Shown piece after piece: positions 8,048 through 28,564 of a stretch of DNA of 37,558 nucleotides. The notes under the pieces are model-generated. The model did not search any database, was not told the origin of the DNA, and saw only the letters and a program-made list of their open reading frames with translations. The number at the start of each line of letters is the position of its first letter. Within the stretch, counting starts at the first letter, position 1. A program made the translations under genes and the position numbers. This DNA comes from Fidelibacterota bacterium (lineage in GTDB: Bacteria; Fidelibacterota; UBA8477; JABMPR01): NCBI GenBank assembly GCA_013202385.1, contig JABMOT010000118.1, forward strand, positions 1-37,558, written 5' to 3'.

Positions 8048-9313
8048 ATGGAATCGCATAAATTATTAAAAATAGTTATTAGTGGCATGCTGCTGATGTC
8101 AGCTGCATTTAGCCAGTCTGCGCTGTTTCTCCTGATTGCACCTGGTGCTCGTGCAGGTGGTATGGGGGAAGCTCAGGTTGCCCTGGCTGACGATTCGTAT
8201 GCAACTTATTGGAATCCAGCGGGATTGGGATTTCAAGAAGGCTACGAAGTATCAGGTATGCATGTGAATTGGCTGCCCGGCCTCGTTGACGATATGTACT
8301 ATGATTTTATAGGTGGGCGCGTACCTGTCCAGGGATTGGGCGTATTTGGGGGGCACCTGATATATTTAAATGCCGGGGAACAACAGTACACAGACGCCAA
8401 CGCGGTTGATTTGGGTACTTTTCTTACATACTTCACTTCTGGTGCCTTGAGTTACTCGACTATGATTTCAGAAAATTCAAGTGTCGGTTTTAATTTTAAA
8501 ATTCTTTATCAACACCTGACTGACAAAAAAGTCGGAAGTGAGGACACCAAGGGTACGGCAACAAATTTTGGATTTGATGCGGGCTATCTGAGTAAAGGAT
8601 ATTTTGGTGGTAAACTTGATCTGGGTGCCATGATTGCCAACCTTGGACCAAAAGTAATCTTTAATGACGAAGAGCAGGCCGATCCAATGCCTACGAATCT
8701 GAAGTTAGGATTTAACATGCGAGTGTATGAATCAAAATTCAATCGGCTAAACCTCGTATATGACGTCAATAAACTTCTGGTTGGTGAATTTGCCAGCATG
8801 GATTGGGATGATGATAAGATCATCGGTGGTTATGATGACAAGGGTGTAGCAAATGAATCAGGTTATTATAATAGCGATGGCCAAAATGAAGCTGCCCATA
8901 CTGATTCATGGTGGGGTGGAATATTTACTTCTTTTTTGGATGATTGGTATCTCGGTGGCGACCGAAATATGGATGATGATACAATGATCGGTGGTTACGG
9001 TCCCGATTCCATCGCTGTTGCAGGCGGATTGTATGGTAACAACGGTTTATTGGAAGTCGGTAACAGTGATGATCGTAGTTTTACTGACGAATTCAGATCT
9101 CTCATACATAGTTTTGGTGCGGAATATTGGTACAATGAAATGTTCGCTATTCGTGCTGGTTATTATTACGATTCTGAAGGAAAAATCACAACACCAACTG
9201 TAGGTGCAGGACTTCGTTATGGGAATTATGGATTTGATTTTGGCTATACTATTGCGGAAGAAACCCATCCTTTGAATAATACCATGCGATTTTCGCTAAT
9301 GTTGAAGTTCTAA
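8048..9313 (+). CDS. porV: PorV-type outer-membrane protein of the type IX secretion system
   Basis: PorV is an outer-membrane barrel that takes T9SS cargo from the translocon and delivers it to the surface attachment complex. The 421-residue protein has a signal peptide (to about residue 22), then the family opening 'APGARAGGMGEAQVALADDSYATYWNPAGL' (residues 31-60) and a series of barrel strands ending in the aromatic 'MRFSLMLKF'. Two loops carry a near-duplicate motif D-D-D-x-x-I-G-G-Y at residues 254-262 and 309-317, within a long Asp/Gly-rich insert that may be surface exposed. The next gene encodes a protein with a T9SS sorting domain, which strengthens the assignment. PorQ-like and other PorV-family paralogues cannot be fully excluded. 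The other T9SS core genes are not in the window. Confidence 0.8.
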   Translation: MESHKLLKIVISGMLLMSAAFSQSALFLLIAPGARAGGMGEAQVALADDSYATYWNPAGLGFQEGYEVSGMHVNWLPGLVDDMYYDFIGGRVPVQGLGVFGGHLIYLNAGEQQYTDANAVDLGTFLTYFTSGALSYSTMISENSSVGFNFKILYQHLTDKKVGSEDTKGTATNFGFDAGYLSKGYFGGKLDLGAMIANLGPKVIFNDEEQADPMPTNLKLGFNMRVYESKFNRLNLVYDVNKLLVGEFASMDWDDDKIIGGYDDKGVANESGYYNSDGQNEAAHTDSWWGGIFTSFLDDWYLGGDRNMDDDTMIGGYGPDSIAVAGGLYGNNGLLEVGNSDDRSFTDEFRSLIHSFGAEYWYNEMFAIRAGYYYDSEGKITTPTVGAGLRYGNYGFDFGYTIAEETHPLNNTMRFSLMLKF

Positions 9314-9334: not shown

Positions 9335-12214
9335 TTGTCGATCGCCAAGTTTAAATCCTTAAACGCAAACGGGGAAGCCATCAACCGGATTATATTCATA
9401 TTCTTGCTGGCTATTGTATCAGTGGCATCTCTAACCGCTGAGACACTTAAAGTAGCCATAATTCGTGTTTCATTTATATCTGATTTATCTCCAGCTACTA
9501 CTGGGGATGGTACTTTTGTGCTTGACGATACTCTAGACCTTGAGTGTACGGACTGGACCTTGGATCCACCACCCCACGGGAAAACCTATTTTTCCGATCA
9601 CCTGATCGCCATGGACAACTACTGGCAACGGGTCACAAATGGAGCCGTAAGTGTTGATCTGGTGAATTCAGCTGTTTTCCCTGACACTGAAAACGGAGCA
9701 TATCAACTACAAAACGATATGCTCTACTATCACCCATATCTTGAAGATTTTGACGAGACTGCTAAACTTTTCGAACTGAGTCGCCATGCCCTTGAACTTG
9801 CGGATCCAGATGTAAACTTTAATAACTACTCTACAGTGATTTTAGTTCATGCAGGAATGGGCGGCGATTTTGCGTTCGCTCTTGATCCAACTCCCGGCAA
9901 TATTCCTTCCGCCTATTTATCATTATCAGATTTCAATCAGTTTGGGCTTTTAGAAACAGATGAAGGAGCTTTAACGGATCTCATAATTGTACCGGAATCT
10001 CAGAACTTTTTACAATATAAAGAAACTCGCGAACTGTTTGCCGAATCAGATGATCCCTGCTTTTATCAGGTTGCCCTGAACGGCACTCTTGCCCTCATGC
10101 TAGGATTTCATTTAGGGTTGCCACCATTATACAATACTGAGACAGGGCGATCCCTGGCAGGTGGTTTTGCACTGATGGATCAAGGTTCAAATAATTTTCA
10201 TGGCATTGTACCCGCTTTTCCTGATCCTTATTCCAGAATTGAGGCAGGCTGGGTTGGATATGCTGAAAAAGGTATTGGTGACTCTGTGAATCTGGGAATT
10301 GGTGATCCACCCATTCGCATTTCCATCACAGATACTGAATACTATCTCATCGAAAACCGACAACGCAACCTACTCCACCCGAGCAGCTTGCCACTCTGGA
10401 TTGATTCACCTGGTTTTGATACCGTATCCGTCGTATTGAGTCCAGGGGGCGTCGTACTCTCTGTCGATGAGCAAGATTCAGGACTTCCCGGAAACGGCCT
10501 CCATATCTGGCATATCGATGAATCGGCCTGGAATAATGTGGAAAATCCCAACGGTGGTCCAATTCAAATGGTTGATTTCGTCGAAGCCGACGGCGCGCAA
10601 GACATGGGTTACACAACCCAGCTACTGTTTGCAGATTATCTTGAGACTGGCTGGTGGTTTGACACCTGGTTCGCAGGCAATCAGGGCTGGTTTCATCTTA
10701 ACCAAAATGCCGCAGTAATAGGGGATAGCTTGCTCTCCTTTAGTTCAAACAGCCACCCGTCAACACGTTCAAATTCTGGAACACCCAGTCATCTCAGACT
10801 CGAGAATATTTCTAAGAATGGTGCTGTAATGACCTTTAATATCAACTCTGATCGATGGCTTGATAGGGATAAGATTTCAAGCATTATAGGCTGGGGAAGC
10901 GGACAAAATTATCTATGGGCATTCAGTCCAGATTCGTCTCAAATATTAAGTTGCACCCTAGTCTCAGGTCAATTGTCATGTGTTGTTAATCCCATCGTTT
11001 CTCCTGCTTTGATCTTTCAAAATAGCGTTGATAGCTTGATAAACTTTAGGCATCCATGGCTGATCACAAAAGTTCCTACTGCCATTCGATTCTTAAATAT
11101 TGAAACTGGAGCTGTTCACTTCGATAATCTTAATCGGGATCCTTACGAAATTTCAGTGAATAATGATCAGGTCACCTACTTCTCGAAAAGGTATTTGCCA
11201 ACAGATACGCTAACCTATATCACATACTGGAATAGCAGTACAAACACAAGTACCAATGTACCCCTTCTGGGTGACCCACTTGCTCGATTCACAAGCACCA
11301 GCGGAACCAGTCTATTCTATGGCGCTGAGGATAAATCATCTCCCACGCCAGTTGGGGTCGCGGCCCAGGCTAATTATCCGGCCAATACCAGCGCTCCCGA
11401 AAAACTGGATGTTATCTCCTGGTCCTCATCCGAGAACAAGTTGATGATCAGTCATTTGCCTGGCGATGAACATTATTTTCTCGATGTGAACAAACCAAGT
11501 CACATAGTTGCACTGGATGCAGATTTGGACGGTTCATATGAAATTGCATTATTTTATTCGGATCATGTAAATATAATGAATCAGGCTGGAATAGTTTGGA
11601 ATGGGAATCCCTTCACCATTGAACCGTTTTTTGGAAATCCAATTCTAGCCCCACTCAGCAACGCGGGATTGGGTATTTTCCTTCGCCACAATGAAAAATA
11701 TGCAGTGTATTCCCTCACTGGTCAGTTAATGGATAGCGGTGTCCTTTCCACCCCTCATGTTGATATTGTGAACACACTGGGTTTCTTCTCTGAGAATTAT
11801 GTTCTCCAGAGTGGTGACGTTTTACTTAACTTTTCAAAATTAGCGAATAGTCAAAACCAGAGTTCCTGGTCCGATCCTCAGGGACGCGCAGAAGGGGATC
11901 GAATGGTTGTGCTCGTTGGTGATCCGATTGTTGATTCACCAAAAATAAAACCAGGTTCAGCCTATAACTATCCAAACCCTGTTAAAGGATCCACCACCAC
12001 TATCAGAACCTGGCTCGGTGATGTTGATACATGGACTATCGAGATATTTTCATTGAGCGGTGCTCAGGTCACATTTTCCGAACAAGTCGTTTCTCAGCAA
12101 AACGCCTACAATGAATGGATTTGGGATGCTTCATCGTTTTCTAATGGTGTGTATCTGGCGCAATTGAGTGCCGGCAACGCAACTGAGATCATTAAAATAG
12201 CCATCATTCGATGA
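9335..12214 (+). CDS. T9SS-secreted M6-metalloprotease-like protein, active site lost
   Basis: The 959-residue protein has a signal peptide (hydrophobic run at about 18-35 ending TAE), an M6/immune-inhibitor-A-like domain (about 38-510), a propeller-like middle, and a T9SS type A sorting domain at 870-959: 'YNYPNPVKGSTTTIR', 'IEIFSLSGAQV', 'WDASSFSNGVYLAQL' and a final 'EIIKIAIIR'. In active M6 enzymes the zinc site reads H-E-F-G-H-x-L-G-L-P-x-L-Y; here residues 254-266 read L-M-L-G-F-H-L-G-L-P-P-L-Y, so both histidines and the glutamate are replaced while the surrounding scaffold, including 'GGFALMDQGS', is kept. It is therefore probably a non-catalytic surface or binding protein. The start is TTG at 9335, directly after an in-frame TGA, with no clear ribosome-binding site. 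It lies 21 bases after porV, whose product would be expected to help export it. It overlaps the next gene by four bases. Confidence 0.75.
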   Translation: MSIAKFKSLNANGEAINRIIFIFLLAIVSVASLTAETLKVAIIRVSFISDLSPATTGDGTFVLDDTLDLECTDWTLDPPPHGKTYFSDHLIAMDNYWQRVTNGAVSVDLVNSAVFPDTENGAYQLQNDMLYYHPYLEDFDETAKLFELSRHALELADPDVNFNNYSTVILVHAGMGGDFAFALDPTPGNIPSAYLSLSDFNQFGLLETDEGALTDLIIVPESQNFLQYKETRELFAESDDPCFYQVALNGTLALMLGFHLGLPPLYNTETGRSLAGGFALMDQGSNNFHGIVPAFPDPYSRIEAGWVGYAEKGIGDSVNLGIGDPPIRISITDTEYYLIENRQRNLLHPSSLPLWIDSPGFDTVSVVLSPGGVVLSVDEQDSGLPGNGLHIWHIDESAWNNVENPNGGPIQMVDFVEADGAQDMGYTTQLLFADYLETGWWFDTWFAGNQGWFHLNQNAAVIGDSLLSFSSNSHPSTRSNSGTPSHLRLENISKNGAVMTFNINSDRWLDRDKISSIIGWGSGQNYLWAFSPDSSQILSCTLVSGQLSCVVNPIVSPALIFQNSVDSLINFRHPWLITKVPTAIRFLNIETGAVHFDNLNRDPYEISVNNDQVTYFSKRYLPTDTLTYITYWNSSTNTSTNVPLLGDPLARFTSTSGTSLFYGAEDKSSPTPVGVAAQANYPANTSAPEKLDVISWSSSENKLMISHLPGDEHYFLDVNKPSHIVALDADLDGSYEIALFYSDHVNIMNQAGIVWNGNPFTIEPFFGNPILAPLSNAGLGIFLRHNEKYAVYSLTGQLMDSGVLSTPHVDIVNTLGFFSENYVLQSGDVLLNFSKLANSQNQSSWSDPQGRAEGDRMVVLVGDPIVDSPKIKPGSAYNYPNPVKGSTTTIRTWLGDVDTWTIEIFSLSGAQVTFSEQVVSQQNAYNEWIWDASSFSNGVYLAQLSAGNATEIIKIAIIR

Positions 12215-15200
12215 CATCCATGCGTTACATTATCCTTCCTTTCGTGCTACTCAGCCTCGTTTCGGGTCAAGGATTTAATCACCCAGAACTGGAATGGAAA
12301 ACTATTGAGGGCGAACACTTTATTGTTCATTATCACCAGAATACTGAATGGACAGCCAACGAAGCACTGCACGTAGCTGATGATATCTATCCGGGAATCA
12401 CTTCTCTGTATCGTTATGCGCCAGAGGATAAAACACATCTGATTATTCGTGATACAGATGATTATGCCAATGGCGGCGCCTACTATTTTGACAATAAGAT
12501 AGAGATCTGGGCAATGCCCCTGGATTACGAGTTGCGCGGTTCCCATTACTGGTTGCGCGATGTCATTACCCATGAATTTACCCATATCGTAAGCCTGAGG
12601 GCAGCCCGGAAGATGCCCGGAAATGTACCGGCGGCGTACCTGCAGGTTATTTCCTATGAACCTGAACGGCGCGAGGATGTTCTCTATGGATATCCCAATG
12701 GAATTGCTTCATATCCATTGCCTTCTGTGTCTGTACCCATGTGGTGGGCCGAAGGGATTGCCCAATTTCAGAATGATACCACCCGCTGGGATTGGTGGGA
12801 TAGCATTCGAGACATGATTTTGCGAGATAGAATAAAATATGGTAAGGTCTTGACTCTCAATGAGATGGATGGATTTGGTAAAGCGGGAATTGGCAATGAA
12901 AGCGTGTATGATCATGGTTTCAGCTTTGTAAGGTATTTGGCTCGAGAATATGGTCAGGATGTGCTGCAGCGAATTACTGATCGAATAACCAGTCCCTTGA
13001 AATATGGATTCTATAATGCTCTTGAGGCAGAGGTCGGCGTGACAACACAGCGCTTATGGGAGGACTGGATAGCTGAGCTCGGACAGCGACAATCCCTTTC
13101 CTTCAAGGAAAACGAGCCGCTTTCACCAATGAGATTCATTCAACGTGAGGGTGCTGCCAATCATTATCCAAGATTTAATGCTGCTGGTAGTTCGCTGGGG
13201 TTTATCTCCAGTGCTGGAGAGACTTATCTGTCAAGAACTGCCTTATTTATCAAGGATTCTACTGCAGATGCTGAGAAAATTATCCCTGGAGCTGAAGGCT
13301 TTGACTGGAGCCCTGACGATCAGCACCTGGTCTATGCTCGGAAAGAGTTTTCGAATAACGGCATTCCAGACCCGCGGACAGCTCACCATCTTAATCACGA
13401 ATTTAGCAAGTTAACAACTTCTGAACAGATCTCGACCTGTGAGCGCTGTAAATTCTTGATCAGTGGCTCAAGATTCTCGGATTTGTTTATTGTTCACCGA
13501 GACAGTCTAAAAGAAGAGCGGCAAATTACTTTTGGAGAGCGCGTAAAAAATCCAGCGTGGTCTCCTGATGGAGAAACGATTGTATTCGTAAATTTAAGAG
13601 ATGGCACCAATAATTTATGTCTGGCCTATCCCGCTATCCCAGATAGTGTTAAGCAACTGACTTATTTTAAGCCGGGAGTACAGGTTTACGTGCCACAATG
13701 GTCTCTTGATGGCTCCCATATCATCTTCGATTATACGATTGGCAGTAACCGGGACATTGCCATATATGCTGTTGATGATGGTACAATTACCCCAGTGGTG
13801 TCAAATGTATGGGATGAGCGCAACCCAATTTATAAAACCGATTCAACAATTCTATATAGTGATGACCGAAACGGAATCTTCAACATTTACAGCCTTGATA
13901 TCCACAGCGGAGAAACGAAGCGTCTAACCAATGTTGTCGGTGGTGCCTTTCAGGCTGAGTGGTTTGGGGACAAATTATATTATTCGCTCTATGATAGTTT
14001 GGGATTCAATATTGCGGTTCTAGATGAGTCCGAATTGCTGGATGCTGTTACAGAGCCCCTAGCGCTTTCAGTCGATCGAATTATTGCGCCCACATGGAAA
14101 CGACATACCAACGCCAAAGATGCAACGGATTACACCCTGCAATATGGTCCAATGTTCATCTTACCGCGTCTTCAGATTGAGATCGATCAATCCAAGAATG
14201 ATATTTTATTCAAACCGGGTTTCTATTTTTTCTCCGATGAAATCCTCACCAATTATTCCTTGATTGGTGGATTTGGTTTGGCACCCAATCTGGATATGGA
14301 TTTATTCTTATCTGCGCAATACCGCAGTTTTTTACCCACTTTAACTCTAGAATTTTACCAAATGATCAGACATACCCGGGAAGATTTATGGTATTACGAT
14401 CATGTCTGGCCAGCACAGAGCAATCTCACTTTCAGTCTGACCCAGGGTGTTTTGTCCGCAGATATCAGTGTGCCCCCGACTCACTCATTAACATTGGATA
14501 TTTCGGCATCAAATTATCGGACTGCCATAGGTCTTCACACAGTAGGAAACAACTTGCCAGCAGGCGGGATTAGCTACGATTATTTTAAGGGCTGGGATTG
14601 GGGATTGAGTTGGAGGATGTCCCACATTAATCTGCGACAAGAACGGGGTATCAATCCTTCAGGCTATAAAGCCAGCGCATCAATCAGAGACAACCATCAT
14701 CATTTTCTCGATGGTTACGGTTATGACGAATCAACTGATCGCTGGGGAAATATTTTTAGTAACAATCGCTATGCAAAATTGAGCGCCTCTGGTTTCTATG
14801 GTTATTTGCTGCCAATTCCAGGTCAGATTGTTGTCTCAAATACAACAGAATTGAATATTATTGATAATAATGCCATTGATGATTTCTTCTACGAATTTGG
14901 AGGTGGATTGCCTGGGCTTAGAGGGTATCCCTACTACAGCATGAAAGGCAGTCGACGTTTCGTTTCCACCACAACGCTTAGATTTCCCATATTTAGGGAT
15001 AATTATAGTCGGGTAGCTCATCTTACTATACGCGATCTCTATATGGGATTTCATGCCCAGATCGGCGCTGCGTGGTCAGCAGATCCGAACCAGGTCACTG
15101 TCAATGAATTTTCTGCCTGGATGTCTCATGAAAAATCGAGAATTGAACTTGTACGAGACCTGGGCGTTGATTTAAGGTTAGCCTTAAATTCCTATTATGC

Positions 15201-15333
15201 TTTTCCGACGGCATTTGAATTTGGGGCCTACTATGGTTTGGATGAGGTTGTCGTGACCACCAATGCCGATGATATACTGAATTATGGTGGTGAATGGCGT
15301 TATTATTGGAAGGTATTATTTGGTTTTGACTAA
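12211..15333 (+). CDS. Surface zinc-protease / TolB-like propeller / beta-barrel fusion protein
   Basis: The 1040-residue protein begins with a signal peptide (to about residue 20; a second ATG at 12220 is equally possible). Residues about 28-290 form a gluzincin-type peptidase (peptidase MA-like): zinc motif H-E-F-T-H at 121-125 and the downstream glutamate in 'WWAEGIAQF' (E181), so the catalytic set is complete. Residues about 315-640 contain PD40/TolB-like propeller repeats ('FDWSPDDQHLVYA', 'PAWSPDGETIVFVN', 'PQWSLDGSHIIFD'). From about 670 to the end, alternating strands ('GFYFFSDEILTNYSLIGGFG', 'LPGLRGYPYYS') finish with 'YYWKVLFGFD', typical of an outer-membrane barrel with an aromatic end. 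I infer a barrel-anchored protease with a periplasmic or surface propeller. It starts within the stop of the preceding gene (ATGA). Substrate unknown. Confidence 0.75.
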   Translation: MTSMRYIILPFVLLSLVSGQGFNHPELEWKTIEGEHFIVHYHQNTEWTANEALHVADDIYPGITSLYRYAPEDKTHLIIRDTDDYANGGAYYFDNKIEIWAMPLDYELRGSHYWLRDVITHEFTHIVSLRAARKMPGNVPAAYLQVISYEPERREDVLYGYPNGIASYPLPSVSVPMWWAEGIAQFQNDTTRWDWWDSIRDMILRDRIKYGKVLTLNEMDGFGKAGIGNESVYDHGFSFVRYLAREYGQDVLQRITDRITSPLKYGFYNALEAEVGVTTQRLWEDWIAELGQRQSLSFKENEPLSPMRFIQREGAANHYPRFNAAGSSLGFISSAGETYLSRTALFIKDSTADAEKIIPGAEGFDWSPDDQHLVYARKEFSNNGIPDPRTAHHLNHEFSKLTTSEQISTCERCKFLISGSRFSDLFIVHRDSLKEERQITFGERVKNPAWSPDGETIVFVNLRDGTNNLCLAYPAIPDSVKQLTYFKPGVQVYVPQWSLDGSHIIFDYTIGSNRDIAIYAVDDGTITPVVSNVWDERNPIYKTDSTILYSDDRNGIFNIYSLDIHSGETKRLTNVVGGAFQAEWFGDKLYYSLYDSLGFNIAVLDESELLDAVTEPLALSVDRIIAPTWKRHTNAKDATDYTLQYGPMFILPRLQIEIDQSKNDILFKPGFYFFSDEILTNYSLIGGFGLAPNLDMDLFLSAQYRSFLPTLTLEFYQMIRHTREDLWYYDHVWPAQSNLTFSLTQGVLSADISVPPTHSLTLDISASNYRTAIGLHTVGNNLPAGGISYDYFKGWDWGLSWRMSHINLRQERGINPSGYKASASIRDNHHHFLDGYGYDESTDRWGNIFSNNRYAKLSASGFYGYLLPIPGQIVVSNTTELNIIDNNAIDDFFYEFGGGLPGLRGYPYYSMKGSRRFVSTTTLRFPIFRDNYSRVAHLTIRDLYMGFHAQIGAAWSADPNQVTVNEFSAWMSHEKSRIELVRDLGVDLRLALNSYYAFPTAFEFGAYYGLDEVVVTTNADDILNYGGEWRYYWKVLFGFD

Positions 15334-22613: not shown

Positions 22614-23768
22614 ATGGCTAAACGTGATTATTATGAAATATTAGGTCTCTCTAAAGGGGCGGAAAAAGCTGAGATCAAAAAGGCTTATCGTAAAATAGCC
22701 ATGCAATACCACCCTGATAAAAATCCTGGTGATGCGAGCGCTGAGGCCAAGTTCAAAGAAGCTGCAGAAGCCTATTCTGTTCTTAATGACGACCAGAAGA
22801 AAGCCCACTACGATCAATATGGACATGCACCTGAAGGTGGCGGTGGTGGCAATCCTTTTGACGGTTTTGGTGGCGGTGGTTTCGGAGTTGATTTATCAGA
22901 TGCACTTAGAATATTTATGGAGGGTTTTGGTGGCGGTGGCGGTGGATTGGGAGATATCTTTGGTGGTGGCGGATCTCGGGGTCGTGGCCGTGCCAAAGGA
23001 TCCGACTTGAAGATCAAATTGCCATTGACTCTTGAAGAAATAGCCACAGGCATTACAAAAAAAATGAAAGTGAAACGCTACGAGATTTGCAATGATTGTA
23101 GCGGGAGTGGCGCCAAGGATAAATCAGATAAAACAAATTGCTCAGTTTGTCATGGTCGCGGTGAAGTTCAACAAGTTTCAAGATCCATGTTTGGACAGTT
23201 TGTAAATATTCAACCTTGCACCAATTGTGATGGAACTGGCGAGGTGATCGCACACCCCTGTAAAAGTTGTCATGGGGATGGCCGTATCAGGCAGGAATCC
23301 ATAGTTTCTGCCAAAATACCTGCCGGCGTGCATGCTGGAAATTATATGACCCTCCGGGGCGAGGGTAATGCTGCTCGCAGGGGAGGTCAACAAGGTGATC
23401 TAATTGTCTTGATTGATGAAAAAGAACATGATCTGTTTATTCGCGATGAAGATAATATTTATCTTGAGCTTGTAATTAATATGGCGGAGGCCGTATTGGG
23501 TGCCGATTTGGAAATTCCTACCTTGACTGGCAAGGTCAATTTGAAAATTCCAGCTGGCTCACAATCTGGCAAATTATTGAGATTGCGAGGCAAGGGTATC
23601 CCACGGATAAATAGTCACTTGGTCGGTGATCAGATGGTTAAAATTCAAATAGATACCCCCACAAAACCAAGCAAGCAGGAGCGCGAAGTATATCAGCGCT
23701 TGTCTGACTACTACATTGGACGGGGAAAGAGTGAGAGTATCTTTAGAAAAATTAAATCCCTACTATGA
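22614..23768 (+). CDS. dnaJ: Chaperone protein DnaJ
   Basis: DnaJ delivers substrates to DnaK and stimulates its ATPase. The 384-residue protein shows the J domain with H-P-D at residues 33-35, a Gly/Phe-rich region (about 74-120, including runs of four and five glycines), four zinc-binding C-x-x-C-x-G-x-G repeats (from Cys 159, 176, 202 and 216), and the C-terminal substrate domain ('VPRINS'-like 'GIPRINSHLVGDQMVKI'). All functional elements are intact. Normally dnaK lies between grpE and dnaJ or next to them; it is missing here. The gene end overlaps the next gene by 38 bases in another frame. Confidence 0.95.
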   Translation: MAKRDYYEILGLSKGAEKAEIKKAYRKIAMQYHPDKNPGDASAEAKFKEAAEAYSVLNDDQKKAHYDQYGHAPEGGGGGNPFDGFGGGGFGVDLSDALRIFMEGFGGGGGGLGDIFGGGGSRGRGRAKGSDLKIKLPLTLEEIATGITKKMKVKRYEICNDCSGSGAKDKSDKTNCSVCHGRGEVQQVSRSMFGQFVNIQPCTNCDGTGEVIAHPCKSCHGDGRIRQESIVSAKIPAGVHAGNYMTLRGEGNAARRGGQQGDLIVLIDEKEHDLFIRDEDNIYLELVINMAEAVLGADLEIPTLTGKVNLKIPAGSQSGKLLRLRGKGIPRINSHLVGDQMVKIQIDTPTKPSKQEREVYQRLSDYYIGRGKSESIFRKIKSLL

Positions 23769-24237
23769 TGAGGCAGGAAACTTGCTAAATTTTACACGCC
23801 AAGAACGGGTTGTAATTTATTTTTTGATTGCCACCCTCGGTATTGGTTTCATACTGAAAATGGTTAGAAATCAACGTCTTGACGAACAATTGGTACCCAG
23901 TCGGTTTTATGAAGAAGAGCAACAGTTCAAGGAGATCGCTGCAAAGATCAATTCTGGAGTGTTGCCGCTACTTGACAGTATGAAGATAAGTGATCATATC
24001 TCAACAGGGGATTCTAAGCTAGATGATAGCAATGCCTTTATTGAAAAGATCAATCTTAATTCTGCTGATGTGAGTGAACTATCAAAGTTGCCTGGTGTTG
24101 GACCAGCAATTGCGAATAGAATCCGAGCTTATACGGATCAAAATGGTCCATTTAAGAATAAAGAAGATATAATCCTCGTGAAGGGGATTGGAAAAATAAT
24201 GTATGCCCGCATTCAGGGTTTAGTTACAATAGAGTAA
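23731..24237 (+). CDS. Membrane-anchored helix-hairpin-helix protein (ComEA-like)
   Basis: The roughly 168-residue protein has one N-terminal transmembrane helix ('VVIYFLIATLGIGFILKMV', about residues 25-43), a charged linker, and a C-terminal double helix-hairpin-helix: 'INLNSADVSELSKLPGVGPAIANRIRAY' then 'FKNKEDIILVKGIGKIMYARIQGLVTIE'. The 'LPGVGPAIA' and 'VKGIGKIM' hairpins are the DNA-contacting turns of ComEA, which holds incoming DNA at the membrane in natural transformation. GTG at 23731 is preferred because GGGGAAA lies just upstream; a TTG at 23716 is in the same frame. The long overlap with dnaJ is unusual. Neighbours are PilM/PilN-like proteins, which suits a DNA-uptake role, but HHH proteins also occur in other settings. 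Confidence 0.75.
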   Translation: MRVSLEKLNPYYDEAGNLLNFTRQERVVIYFLIATLGIGFILKMVRNQRLDEQLVPSRFYEEEQQFKEIAAKINSGVLPLLDSMKISDHISTGDSKLDDSNAFIEKINLNSADVSELSKLPGVGPAIANRIRAYTDQNGPFKNKEDIILVKGIGKIMYARIQGLVTIE

Positions 24238-24250
24238 TCGAGGAGGACTC

Positions 24251-26482
24251 GTGAGTAAAGACGTTTTTGCCAATCACAGAACCAATACGGTGATAATAAT
24301 AGTTCTGATTACGTTATTTATAAGCGTAATCTATATACCGAAAACAATCTGGGATTATGAGGCTAAACTTCGTGACGAATCTCGCTTTCGGATGAATACA
24401 ATGAGTTTGGCAGAAAGACTACACTATCAGCTGGTTAAATCTTATACCACGGATAGCGAACAATTAGTTAGAGTGGTTAATAGCGTCAGGGATAGCTTAC
24501 TCGTCGCAAAAAATGATAGCAGTTACAGCTATTATGGCATGCACAAAATCCCGCTTGCCGGAAAATCCATCCCGGTGAATTACTCAGATGAATATCTGGA
24601 TTTATATCGAAAACTTCATCTTGATCTATTCAAAATACTTGAACCTAGCCATCATACGAATCCTCAATCTGTCTATCAGATTTTAGATACAATTAAAACG
24701 AGATTTGAGGAGGGAAATTTTGTTGGCGAGCAAACTCTTGAGGTCGATAGTATTCCGCTCAGCTTTATCGTTTCTGATAAATTTGATATTCTTTATCAAA
24801 ACATCACAACTGCCATGTTTAATTATTTAACAACCAGTTATACAAAATATCCCGAATTCTCAAACCCTCTTGTACATGCTGTCATGGATAGTATTGCGAA
24901 AAATCCAAATCTATCTGGGAGAACCGATTTTGCTGGAATCTATGATGGACCAGTAAGAATTGATTTTATCATACCGTCCAATTTTAAAGAGAATCTTGGT
25001 ACAACACTTGAAGCTTACAAGAAATTATTTGTCATGGATGCCTATGATTCAGCCACCTATGGCGACACACTTTATGATATGGCATTGGCAGAATTTTTAA
25101 CCCTGTCTGACACTTTAGATTATGTTCCTGAGAAACTCAATCTCATCTATACCGACACGAGTAACATAAAGGTTAAAGTACCAGTAGATGTAAAAGTCCA
25201 GGATATGGAAGCGGCTATTTCCAAGCGACGCAATAAACTTTACACTTTGCTAACTGGATATAGTGAACCCAGTGCCTATATTGCCAATTATATTATTAAT
25301 GTGGCCAAAGATTCTTTGGCTTCACCCAATGCGGGCATGGATTCAATACATATAGACGTTGATCTAACCAACGCCATTTTCAATATAAACATTCACAAGA
25401 ATATTGCAGAATTGTTCTACAAAGTCAACCTTGAGCAAGCCTATTACAAAACCCAGGTAAACTTGCGCGATCTGGATTGGGAGCAGGCCGCAATGGATGT
25501 CGTTGAATCTGTGGCCAGCTCACTTCAGAGAAAATCTGATTTTAAAAACTGGCAGACGGTTGAAGCTGAGTCAGATACATTTTATGTAAATATTCCTGAC
25601 AAGTTTCTGAGAATGTATGACAACATGAATATGGCGCTCTTCGAGAAACTGAGTGGCGTGCCCAACAACATTCATGACTTTACATACAAAGTGGTGAGTG
25701 AAGCCCAGCGGCTAGCCAATGTTGATACTCTGGATTGGCGCGGAGCTCAAGTTATCGAATTTGAACCTGACACTATTTTAGTCGATGTCTTTCCAACCTT
25801 TTTATCAGAGTATGACACCACTTTTACAATCGCTCGTGATACAGTAGTTCAAATTGGTGATAGCTCTTTTACTGGCGTTTGGTTCCGCAATAAAGTGGGT
25901 GTTATTCATGAGATGGCTTATGATTCACTCATATTTCTTACATCCACACTTAATTCTAGGTACAAATATAATTTTCATGGTACCGATAGTGTCGCGTCAA
26001 TAAATATTATTGAGAAGAGTGACACTTCTAGAGTTGAAAAAGTATTCTATGGGATGGAAACCTATATCATGACATTTGGTGAGGACAGTCTTTTAGAGAA
26101 CCTCTATCGTATTACTGATATGTATGCAGACTATGATTCTATTCAAATAGACAGTCTCAGCGTGGTTTCTGATGAATTTATTTCCGGTTCTTTGGAAAAA
26201 GACTTATTTACGGTCAAAGACTCATTTGGCGGTTGGCAGGATACGACCATTGATAAAAAGTACGTAAAAAGACAACTCTACCGTCATTATAATCTCGTAG
26301 AAGAGCATAGCCGTTGCGCGGTTACAAATATTCCGTTCAGAATCACGGTTAGAAATAATGTAAATTTGACCATAGAATCCCCGATTACAGCGCCAATCGA
26401 GAAAAGTCGCTATCTATTCTTTTCCCAGGTGGATTCCAGTCACGGACGTATCGCAGATGGGGAAGAGAGCTGGTTAAAATAA
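24251..26482 (+). CDS. Single-pass periplasmic protein with about seven internal repeats, function unknown
   Basis: I do not recognise this 743-residue protein. It starts at GTG 24251 after a strong GAGGAGG site. Residues 1-12 are cytoplasmic, 13-33 form one transmembrane helix, and the rest is expected in the periplasm. A unit of about 60-75 residues recurs: a helix, a short strand, then a strand of alternating hydrophobics followed by an amphipathic helix ending in Leu-Phe-x-x-Leu. Cores begin near residues 107 (SIPVNYSDEYLDLYRK), 167, 234 (PVRIDFIIPSNFKENL), 306, 365, 443 (TFYVNIPDKFLRMYDN) and 508 (TILVDVFPTFLSEYDT). After about 530 the repeat fades and a separate C-terminal part has 'CAVTNIPFRITVRNNVNLTIESPI'. 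It lies 13 bases after the ComEA-like gene and 14 before the PilM-like gene, so it is probably a structural part of the same machine. Confidence 0.8.
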   Translation: MSKDVFANHRTNTVIIIVLITLFISVIYIPKTIWDYEAKLRDESRFRMNTMSLAERLHYQLVKSYTTDSEQLVRVVNSVRDSLLVAKNDSSYSYYGMHKIPLAGKSIPVNYSDEYLDLYRKLHLDLFKILEPSHHTNPQSVYQILDTIKTRFEEGNFVGEQTLEVDSIPLSFIVSDKFDILYQNITTAMFNYLTTSYTKYPEFSNPLVHAVMDSIAKNPNLSGRTDFAGIYDGPVRIDFIIPSNFKENLGTTLEAYKKLFVMDAYDSATYGDTLYDMALAEFLTLSDTLDYVPEKLNLIYTDTSNIKVKVPVDVKVQDMEAAISKRRNKLYTLLTGYSEPSAYIANYIINVAKDSLASPNAGMDSIHIDVDLTNAIFNINIHKNIAELFYKVNLEQAYYKTQVNLRDLDWEQAAMDVVESVASSLQRKSDFKNWQTVEAESDTFYVNIPDKFLRMYDNMNMALFEKLSGVPNNIHDFTYKVVSEAQRLANVDTLDWRGAQVIEFEPDTILVDVFPTFLSEYDTTFTIARDTVVQIGDSSFTGVWFRNKVGVIHEMAYDSLIFLTSTLNSRYKYNFHGTDSVASINIIEKSDTSRVEKVFYGMETYIMTFGEDSLLENLYRITDMYADYDSIQIDSLSVVSDEFISGSLEKDLFTVKDSFGGWQDTTIDKKYVKRQLYRHYNLVEEHSRCAVTNIPFRITVRNNVNLTIESPITAPIEKSRYLFFSQVDSSHGRIADGEESWLK

Positions 26483-26496
26483 CAGACTGAGGCAAT

Positions 26497-27438
26497 ATGC
26501 TGGCGATTCACATTACGCATAACTCTATAAAATATGCCCAACTGGTAAATTTTAAAGGGACACCTTTCATTGAGAGTCTTGGGAAAGTAAGCATTAAAGA
26601 AGGCTTACTGATGCCGGATATGAGCAATGGAGAGGTAATGGTTTCTCTGGCTAGCCAAATAGCTAAAATAAGAAATTCAGCAGAATTTCCTGATAACTCA
26701 ACCCATATCGTCATCGATAGCGATTGGTTCCCACTTGGTATTCACCAGGTTGATGCGACCCTATCGGGGCCAGATCTCAATAAATTTCTAAAGTGGCGGA
26801 TGGATGAGATGCTTGAAAGTGCAGCTTCCCAATTCTCGCTTGTTCATCAGGAGCTGAGTCGATCTCCTGAAAAAGGCGTCGACTATCTTACCATAGGTAT
26901 CCCCATAACCTTTGATGCCTGGCTGCAAAAAATATTCGCATCGTCTGAATTAGAAGTTAAAAAGGTGATTACTGAAATACAGGCGCTGGGAGATATTCTT
27001 GCAGCAAGTGGTCTATTGGATACTGAGGGTGGAATTCAAGTCGTTATGGATAATCGAGAGAATTGCATCTCTTGCCATCTGTATCAAAAGGGAGATTTCA
27101 TCGGTCTGTTTCAAGCCTCTCTAAATTGGGATTACAAGATTACAATTGACCACTCCCGTGGAGATTATGAATTAATCACTCAGGTAAAAGACTCAATTGA
27201 GAAGGCAATCAAGGGAAAACGAGATCCACAAAATGTGATCACCAACCTCTTTTACTTCACCTCTGCCGGCGATGACACTGTATTGAATAATTTAAAACAG
27301 TATCCAGATTCCTGCAAAATTCTCAATCTGGTACAACACTTTAATTTTCGTGATCCAGAATATCATAATATTGACGAGTATGCTGTCGTTTTGGGAGCCT
27401 TAAGTATGGAGATACAGGAGCGTTTCCATGAAGATTGA
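26497..27438 (+). CDS. PilM-like actin-fold protein
   Basis: The 313-residue protein is soluble. Its opening 'MLAIHITHNSIKYAQLVNFKGTPFIESLGKV' follows the first beta-hairpin of actin-like proteins in the PilM/GspL family, which typically read 'iGIDIGsssIKvvel'. A segment 'LKWRMDEMLESAASQFSLVHQEL' corresponds to the PilM stretch with two helices before 'D...l', and the end 'DEYAVVLGALSME' resembles the 'a.alGLAlr' helix of PilM. The nucleotide-binding residues are not well conserved, so it may be a degenerate scaffold. PilM sits under the inner membrane and binds the N-terminal tail of PilN; here the next gene, overlapping by 11 bases, has that arrangement. The call rests on pattern and context and should be treated as probable only. 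Confidence 0.6.
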   Translation: MLAIHITHNSIKYAQLVNFKGTPFIESLGKVSIKEGLLMPDMSNGEVMVSLASQIAKIRNSAEFPDNSTHIVIDSDWFPLGIHQVDATLSGPDLNKFLKWRMDEMLESAASQFSLVHQELSRSPEKGVDYLTIGIPITFDAWLQKIFASSELEVKKVITEIQALGDILAASGLLDTEGGIQVVMDNRENCISCHLYQKGDFIGLFQASLNWDYKITIDHSRGDYELITQVKDSIEKAIKGKRDPQNVITNLFYFTSAGDDTVLNNLKQYPDSCKILNLVQHFNFRDPEYHNIDEYAVVLGALSMEIQERFHED

Positions 27439-28564
27439 TCTGAGAAAAGACAGAGGTCTTCTTGGGTCGGTCAAGTTCCAGGCCACAAGTTTGCGCAATG
27501 AGGAACTCTCGGAAGATGAGCAAATAGCTGAAACCATGCGTCGACGACGCAGTGGAAAACAATCCAAGGATACGGATGAACCATCAGATCCAGGATTTTC
27601 TAACGAGCCAACCAGTACAGAGAGTACTCCCAAATCCAAAAAGAATGTGAAGCGTATTTCCTTAAGGGAGTTGTTGATATTTATTATGATGCTGGCCAGC
27701 TTTGCCTATTACTTGTATGATAAAGGGGAGCTCTTTTCCTCCATCGATAAGGCAAAAAGTTATGTCATGAATTTGGTTGGGATGCCCATTATAGAATCAA
27801 ACGATTTAGATATGGCTGAGGACACTCTGGACGGGGATGGCATTCTACCTGAATCTCTTTTCAATGCACTAATGCCGGTCACATCACATATTGCAGCCTT
27901 AGCTGATTCAATAGCTAAGCTAAATGATGAATCACTTTTTATCGATTCAAAAGACAGCAGTGATTCAAGCGAGTATGATTATGTTTATATTCCCGTTATC
28001 GAAAAACAAGTCATATTGTCTGACGATGACTTAAGTATTATCAATAACAGGTCTTTATTATTGTTGGTCACCGAATTAATAGATGTTTATCCAGCAGAGT
28101 CTGGTGCCGGGCATCTATTCTTAAAACGAGATGCACTAAAGCTAACAGCACCTCGGCGTGGCGAATGGGTTGGTCAGGTAAAATCAACCCTGGATAAATT
28201 TGTCTCAGGAAGTTTCATCGAGGATTACAGTTCTGGAAAAGCGGTACTCACCAGTAAGTTTGAACTCATATTATATACTGAACAGGATTTTCAGCCGCAG
28301 ATTCTGAGCGCACTCAAACTTCTTGATGTTCTCGCTCATCCTTTTAATGATTATCTTAAGCAGATCATTATTGATCTTGCTAGAGGCGTCGATGAAAACC
28401 CAGCTAAATTCACCTTTGCTGGCAGCATACAAGAAATTCAATATATTTTATCATCCTGGGCAGAATCTCGAAATAATATTCGGCTGACTTCAATTGATAT
28501 TGATTTCCAGGGTGATGAACTTACTCTTACCATTGGCGCAATCTTCTTCACATATAAACCATGA
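27428..28564 (+). CDS. PilN/PilO-like bitopic membrane protein
   Basis: The 378-residue protein has a cytoplasmic tail of about 78 residues that begins 'MKIDLRKDRG' and contains a charged, Ser/Pro-rich low-complexity stretch, one transmembrane helix at about 80-97 ('ELLIFIMMLASFAYYLYDKG'), and a periplasmic part with two likely ferredoxin-like halves: about 205-290 ('LLLLVTELIDVYPAESGAGHLFLK') and about 330-378 ('FTFAGSIQEIQYILSSWAES', 'LTSIDIDFQGDELTLTIGAIFFT'). The last phrase resembles the closing strands of PilO and GspM. PilN and PilO are each about 200 residues, so this may combine both roles or be a distant analogue. It overlaps the PilM-like gene by 11 bases and rsmD by four. No secretin, pilin or motor gene follows. 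Confidence 0.6.
   Translation: MKIDLRKDRGLLGSVKFQATSLRNEELSEDEQIAETMRRRRSGKQSKDTDEPSDPGFSNEPTSTESTPKSKKNVKRISLRELLIFIMMLASFAYYLYDKGELFSSIDKAKSYVMNLVGMPIIESNDLDMAEDTLDGDGILPESLFNALMPVTSHIAALADSIAKLNDESLFIDSKDSSDSSEYDYVYIPVIEKQVILSDDDLSIINNRSLLLLVTELIDVYPAESGAGHLFLKRDALKLTAPRRGEWVGQVKSTLDKFVSGSFIEDYSSGKAVLTSKFELILYTEQDFQPQILSALKLLDVLAHPFNDYLKQIIIDLARGVDENPAKFTFAGSIQEIQYILSSWAESRNNIRLTSIDIDFQGDELTLTIGAIFFTYKP

Follow-up and report, generated by a model that had tools for sequence, protein, structure and literature searches.

The 743-residue protein encoded at 24251-26482 of the DNA described here (forward strand, an open frame with a GTG start), which we call REP, contains seven tandem homologous modules of ~65 residues behind a membrane anchor, and its gene stands in a conserved operon with homologues of PilM and of PilN/PilO that is retained in genomes without a detectable pilus motor, secretin or prepilin peptidase. 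The pilin-like character of the anchor, the PilM- and PilN/O-like neighbours and the apparent origin of the array as an expansion of a phylum-wide one-module protein go beyond an earlier sequence-only reading of this DNA, which had described about seven degenerate repeats in an unrecognised periplasmic protein.

The REP gene and its neighbourhood

The window, that is, the whole stretch of 37,558 nucleotides analysed, is a contig of a metagenome-assembled genome (MAG) of Marinimicrobia (Neomarinimicrobiota), a genome only 72% complete. The REP frame is a real gene: it is present as a single copy without internal stops in 20/20 genomes of its family, with 39-69% identity between REP and its relatives there. 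It belongs to a same-strand run comprising ftsE, ftsX, hrcA, grpE, dnaJ, a gene for a helix-hairpin-helix (HHH) protein, REP, genes for proteins of 313 and 378 residues, rsmD, coaD and a gene for a zinc-ribbon protein, and across the phylum the order reads ftsE-ftsX-(hrcA)-grpE-dnaJ-HHH-REP-PilM-(PilN/O)-rsmD-coaD-Zn ribbon. REP has no match in Pfam or among PDB sequences, in keeping with the earlier statement that no named family with this layout was known. A literature search found no experiment on any protein of the operon, and nothing on the operon in work on Marinimicrobia pili or type IX secretion. Elsewhere in the window, at 12211-15333, lies a gene for a 1040-residue protein combining a weak peptidase-MA match with beta-propeller repeats (PD40), adjoined by a gene for a DUF5683-like protein.

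Seven tandem modules

Identity between the units of REP is low (15% in the main alignment described below), and the single sequence compared with itself scores only 24.5; since repeat detection from one sequence fails for REP, a family profile is essential. When a profile of 22 long homologues was aligned against itself with hhalign, the main off-diagonal match, with a score of 75.7 and E 2.1e-8, spanned 384 columns and paired REP residues 55-459 with 120-524; it was accompanied by the pairs 73-187/415-526 (E 3.9e-6) and 56-120/462-522 (E 6e-4). The best scores obtained from shuffled profiles were 25.0 in 30 column shuffles and 29.0 in 30 shuffles of six-column blocks; self-comparison scores lay between 6.9 and 26.0 for the PilM-like, PilN/O-like, HrcA, FtsX, GlgC and HHH families and reached 51.0 for DnaJ, a positive control chosen for the known duplication in its C-terminal domain. 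The repeats claimed by the sequence-only reading are thus borne out by the self-alignment it had called for, the score of 75.7 standing far above the shuffle maximum of 29.0.

Chaining the self-alignment from residue 107 leads to 170, 237, 308, 375, 442 and 507, and these positions define seven units of 63-74 residues spanning 55-523. Six of the cores named earlier (107, 167, 234, 306, 443 and 508) agree with the chain, and the remaining one, 365, is about ten residues away from the position found here. On the forward strand, module 1 (residues 55-119) occupies 24413-24607, module 2 (120-182) 24608-24796, module 3 (183-249) 24797-24997, module 4 (250-323) 24998-25219, module 5 (324-390) 25220-25420, module 6 (391-457) 25421-25621 and module 7 (458-523) 25622-25819; module 1 is delimited by the chained profile self-alignment, modules 2-5 also by the helix-helix-strand-strand order seen in the structural model, module 6 also by the full-length model, and module 7 by its match to the single module of short homologues. 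The C-terminal region (residues 524-743, 25820-26479) follows, of which the last ~98 residues (646-743) are conserved in the short homologues and carry the motifs Cys..P(Y/F)xI and SW.

An AlphaFold2 model built with 18 homologues shows the order helix-helix-strand-strand seven times in the same frame as the units found by sequence. Only 265 residues of the full-length model reach pLDDT 70, and it is unreliable at residues 508-743 (524-743 below pLDDT 50) and in the anchor region. A second run on residues 113-400, covering units 2-5, gave four regular units with pLDDT 77.6 and pTM 0.72, so that equivalent modules are predicted throughout the array and with good confidence for these four. Self-alignment and modelling both support the seven equal helix-and-strand modules that the sequence-only reading envisaged behind a membrane anchor, and the array may plausibly form a long periplasmic rod.

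The suggestion that the modules are POTRA-like or resemble the ring-building domains of type III secretion and sporulation systems found no support. POTRA domains have the order beta-alpha-alpha-beta-beta; the REP module is predicted as alpha-alpha-beta-beta, Foldseek against the PDB returned no match at E <= 0.001 for either the full model or the four-unit fragment, and no POTRA or ring-building entry appears among the 50 best PDB matches of that fragment. Wzz chain-length regulators were the top Foldseek matches of the full model and were set aside because of their E value of 0.035 and probability of 0.13.

A one-module protein found across the phylum

A REP homologue is present in 218/245 genomes of the phylum. 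Outside the taxonomic order to which the window belongs, matches to REP cover its two ends only (residues ~3-121 and 646-741), and the 32 loci read out establish the one-module form as the common architecture of the family, most homologues having 246-301 residues (~250) and a single module. A profile of 22 short forms matches the long family with an overall E of 2.3e-30; its positions 59-123 align with REP 464-529 (E 1.5e-8), and it also matches REP 188-224 (1.8e-5), 413-457 (5e-5) and 331-384 (0.003). The short-form profile thus aligns with several internal stretches of REP, and the unit repeated there is the one that short forms carry once. Short homologues also gave sub-threshold matches to MazE/PemI, GajA and other proteins, but these fell on different members and different regions and were attributed to chance.

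The members from family f6 (L049, L057) are 329-331 residues long and contain two modules, and seven modules are found in the window's order. A 709-residue member from family f3 (L065:3441-5570), known from one genome only, carries an array whose self-similarity is detectable from its single sequence (E 8e-17), with units far more alike than those of REP. This difference from the window's array points to a separate, younger expansion in f3, and the simplest reading of the sequences would be a one-module ancestor with expansion in at least two lineages. The search for homologues outside the phylum was a single scan with a pattern derived from long forms, and for this reason we do not claim that the family is restricted to the phylum. 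In family f27 (L072:5873-6994, L071:6083-7039), the C-terminal region of the short homologue contains an insertion that looks like a response-regulator receiver domain in degenerate form (in L072, Pfam Response_reg reaches only E 0.041), which is odd for a protein expected in the periplasm.

A pilin-like anchor

Hydropathy indicates one N-terminal membrane helix in REP, running into a long helix (residues 12-54, 24284-24412, forward strand); the model places a helix at 6-63, with low confidence there. The best PDB sequence matches of the short-form profile include the pilins PilA, geopilin and GspG, weak (E 0.03-0.95) and mixed with unrelated proteins, with PilA and GspG aligning to the short form in one register in which E5 and P22 are matched. 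As an independent comparison, eleven pilins from Marinimicrobia type IV pilus (T4P) or type II secretion system (T2SS) loci were aligned with the short-form profile, giving ungapped alignments of 58-61 columns with scores of 29.6 (N-terminal profile) and 36.2 (full profile); six other families scored 9.2-18.0, a reversed profile 16.5 and 40 region-preserving shuffles at most 21.7. The match is moderate, with E of ~1e-4 to 4e-5 for a single comparison, and concerns the N-terminal ~60 residues only. The long form by itself has T at +5 and does not match pilins, and similarity to pilins over the whole protein was accordingly rejected.

The residue at +5 was compared in 32 members: 14 have Glu, 8 Asp, 5 Asn, 4 (the long forms) Thr and 1 Lys, which makes it acidic in 22/32; the spacing to P22 is fixed at 21 residues, and the continuation is amphipathic. 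In the aligned register Gly stands at -1 in 0/32 members, from which we judge the anchor to be probably uncleaved. On this moderate evidence from sequence comparison, the anchor is probably a pilin-derived helix whose peptidase site has been lost.

Operon partners

Downstream of REP, the gene at 26497-27438 (forward strand) encodes a 313-residue actin-fold protein resembling PilM. The profile of its family matches PDB chains of PilM (3jc8_Ma, E 2.4e-9; 5eox/5eou, E 2e-6), and Pfam PilM_2 is found in 3/19 members (best 7.3e-11). The following gene (27428-28564, forward strand) encodes a 378-residue PilN/PilO-like single-pass protein whose orthologues have an INLL-type N-terminus. Similarity in this second family is weak (Pfam PilO in one orthologue, E 6.4e-5; PDB PilO 3jc8_Oa, E 0.0099); its members have one membrane segment and are fused to a PilM part in several families. 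A PilM-like gene was found in 29/32 REP loci; of the three remaining loci, L052 is truncated where its contig ends. In family f18 (L060:5854-6710, L064:5812-6622) REP is directly followed by rsmD, both PilM and PilN/O having gone from the operon; REP thus does not everywhere have a PilM gene beside it.

Upstream, at 23716-24237 on the forward strand, lies the gene for the membrane-anchored, ComEA-like HHH protein (Pfam HHH_3, E 1.6e-18), with its true start probably downstream of the listed TTG, which overlaps dnaJ. An HHH gene precedes REP in most syntenic loci. Two such genes stand in tandem upstream of the short homologue in L076:1-12001, and in L053:4623-8436, from the streamlined group f14, there is no HHH gene, and a single fused, highly diverged protein of 463 residues stands for both PilM and PilN/O.

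Retention without pilus machinery

The T2SSE motor ATPase was scored at E <= 1e-20, and the absences reported here hold for the profiles and thresholds named, as applied to MAGs. T2SSE was found in 154/245 genomes and together with REP in 140, leaving 78 of the 218 REP-bearing genomes with REP only; some of these are incomplete MAGs, yet whole groups behave alike. In f14 (genomes of ~0.9 Mb, up to 98% complete), T2SSE exceeded the cut-off in 0/24 genomes and REP was present in 22/24, and in f5-g7 the corresponding counts were 0/10 and 10/10. The 13 genomes tested from f5-g7 and f14 (87-98% complete) yielded neither a secretin nor the prepilin peptidase PF01478.

These distributions bear directly on the notion that REP has an accessory role in a type IV pilus or T2SS, perhaps within an additional alignment complex that includes a pilin-like subunit. 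The homologies to PilM, PilN/O and pilins would suit such a role, as would the presence of T4F motors and secretins in the window genome. We nevertheless regard it as unlikely, considering that the operon is kept in whole lineages in which none of the three hallmarks above was detected and that no member has the Gly expected before a processed pilin helix. The window genome, moreover, carries a separate T4P cluster (L089) with its own PilM (2.4e-44), PilN, PilO and secretin, which makes the PilM and PilN/O of the REP operon a second, divergent set; another locus (L088) has PilO and secretin.

A different client might be the type IX translocon, REP linking it to the inner membrane and so taking the part that the motor and shaft formed by GldL and GldM play in Bacteroidota. 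The translocon protein SprA was found in 15/15 genomes tested, including streamlined ones that have REP and PilM without T4P machinery, and as a large envelope machine common to all tested genomes it is an attractive partner. A PorV-like gene (8048-9313) and a gene for a 959-residue protein with a type IX sorting tail (Por_Secre_tail, 9335-12214) lie within the window, and a GldM model matched none of 18 genomes. That same model, however, matched no control genome, so that absence of GldM is not established; SprA being universal in the tested set, its co-occurrence with the near-universal REP says little; and no linkage between REP and SprA genes was seen. We therefore doubt this link, although it has some appeal. 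As an observation in its own right, the window organism has a type IX secretion system, though several papers call type IX Bacteroidota-specific.

The HHH protein suggests DNA uptake, in which this membrane-anchored protein would bind DNA and REP, PilM and PilN/O would carry it to ComEC. Its gene lies directly upstream of REP with synteny in most loci, and ComEC was found in 4/5 tested f5-g7 genomes, which lack the pilus motor. But ComEC was found in 0/8 tested f14 genomes, where REP is nearly always kept, the f14 locus examined has REP and PilM without an HHH gene, and ComEC was not found in the window genome (a MAG, 72% complete); we consider this scenario very unlikely. The operon could also be the decaying, functionless remnant of a former pilus system, as the local losses and fusions (PilM missing in f18, HHH in f14) might hint, but this is most improbable in view of its near-universal conservation and synteny across the phylum, its intact frames and strongly conserved columns, and its survival in ~0.9 Mb streamlined genomes.

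Discussion

The reading that we favour, with modest confidence, is that REP is an uncleaved, pilin-derived periplasmic strut that forms a T4P-independent scaffold with the PilM-like and PilN/O-like proteins. The ancestral form would have had one helix-helix-strand-strand module of ~65 residues between the anchor and the conserved C-terminal domain. Tandem duplication may then have raised the number of modules to seven in the window's order, placing the C-terminal domain further out into the periplasm; if extra modules push this domain outward, then module number would set its reach. Not being cleaved, REP would presumably stay in the inner membrane, its modules carrying the C-terminal domain outward. 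By analogy with type IV pili, where PilM and its partner are arranged in this way, the PilM-like protein would sit on the cytoplasmic face and bind the N-terminus of the PilN/O-like protein, and we infer that REP would join these two in a complex, with the array as an extended rod whose length sets the reach. Taken together, the conservation of the operon and its persistence where no pilus machinery was detected point to an undescribed envelope structure.

A more ambitious version, in which a pilus-independent, phylum-wide machine with reach tuned by module number provides type IX secretion with its inner-membrane component in the absence of GldLM, appears to us quite unlikely; if the type IX translocon were the client, the system would bear on how type IX secretion is powered outside Bacteroidota. 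If pilus independence itself is correct, the use of pilus-platform proteins without a pilus, seen in the flagellar cage of Campylobacterota, would have a second example here, in a globally distributed marine phylum of which many lineages have no pilus to explain why platform proteins are kept. Since forms with one, two, several and seven modules occur naturally, the family offers a direct test of periplasmic reach against module number.

Among known systems, the FcpMNO flagellar cage proteins of Campylobacterota are similar in that a PilMNO set, encoded in its own operon, serves the flagellar motor independently of type IV pili, in Campylobacter jejuni without other T4P components (PMC11870540); they differ in that they are not known to include a tandem-module pilin-like protein. 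The PilM-PilN-PilO platform of type IVa pili, with its T2SS counterpart PulL/PulM, is alike in having a PilM-like protein followed in one operon by an INLL-type, PilO-like single-pass protein, and the PilM/PilO-like fusions in some REP operons resemble PulL, in which PilM and PilN are fused (PMC10191384). Compared with the type IVa platform, the REP operon has no secretin, motor ATPase or peptidase and is kept in genomes without them, and it includes a pilin-like protein that is probably not cleaved. The periplasmic shaft GldM/PorM shares with REP an inner-membrane anchor followed by serial periplasmic domains, here in a phylum with SprA; on the other side, the GldM model matched nothing in the 18 genomes, a search without a positive control, and GldM domains have a fold different from that of the REP module. 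Type IV pilins and pseudopilins (PilA, GspG, ComGC) resemble the N-terminal ~60 residues of the short form, with its mostly acidic +5 position and P22. Unlike them, the REP family lacks Gly at -1, and its alignment with them stops at residue ~60; the remainder consists of between one and seven helix-helix-strand-strand modules followed by an unrelated C-terminal domain.
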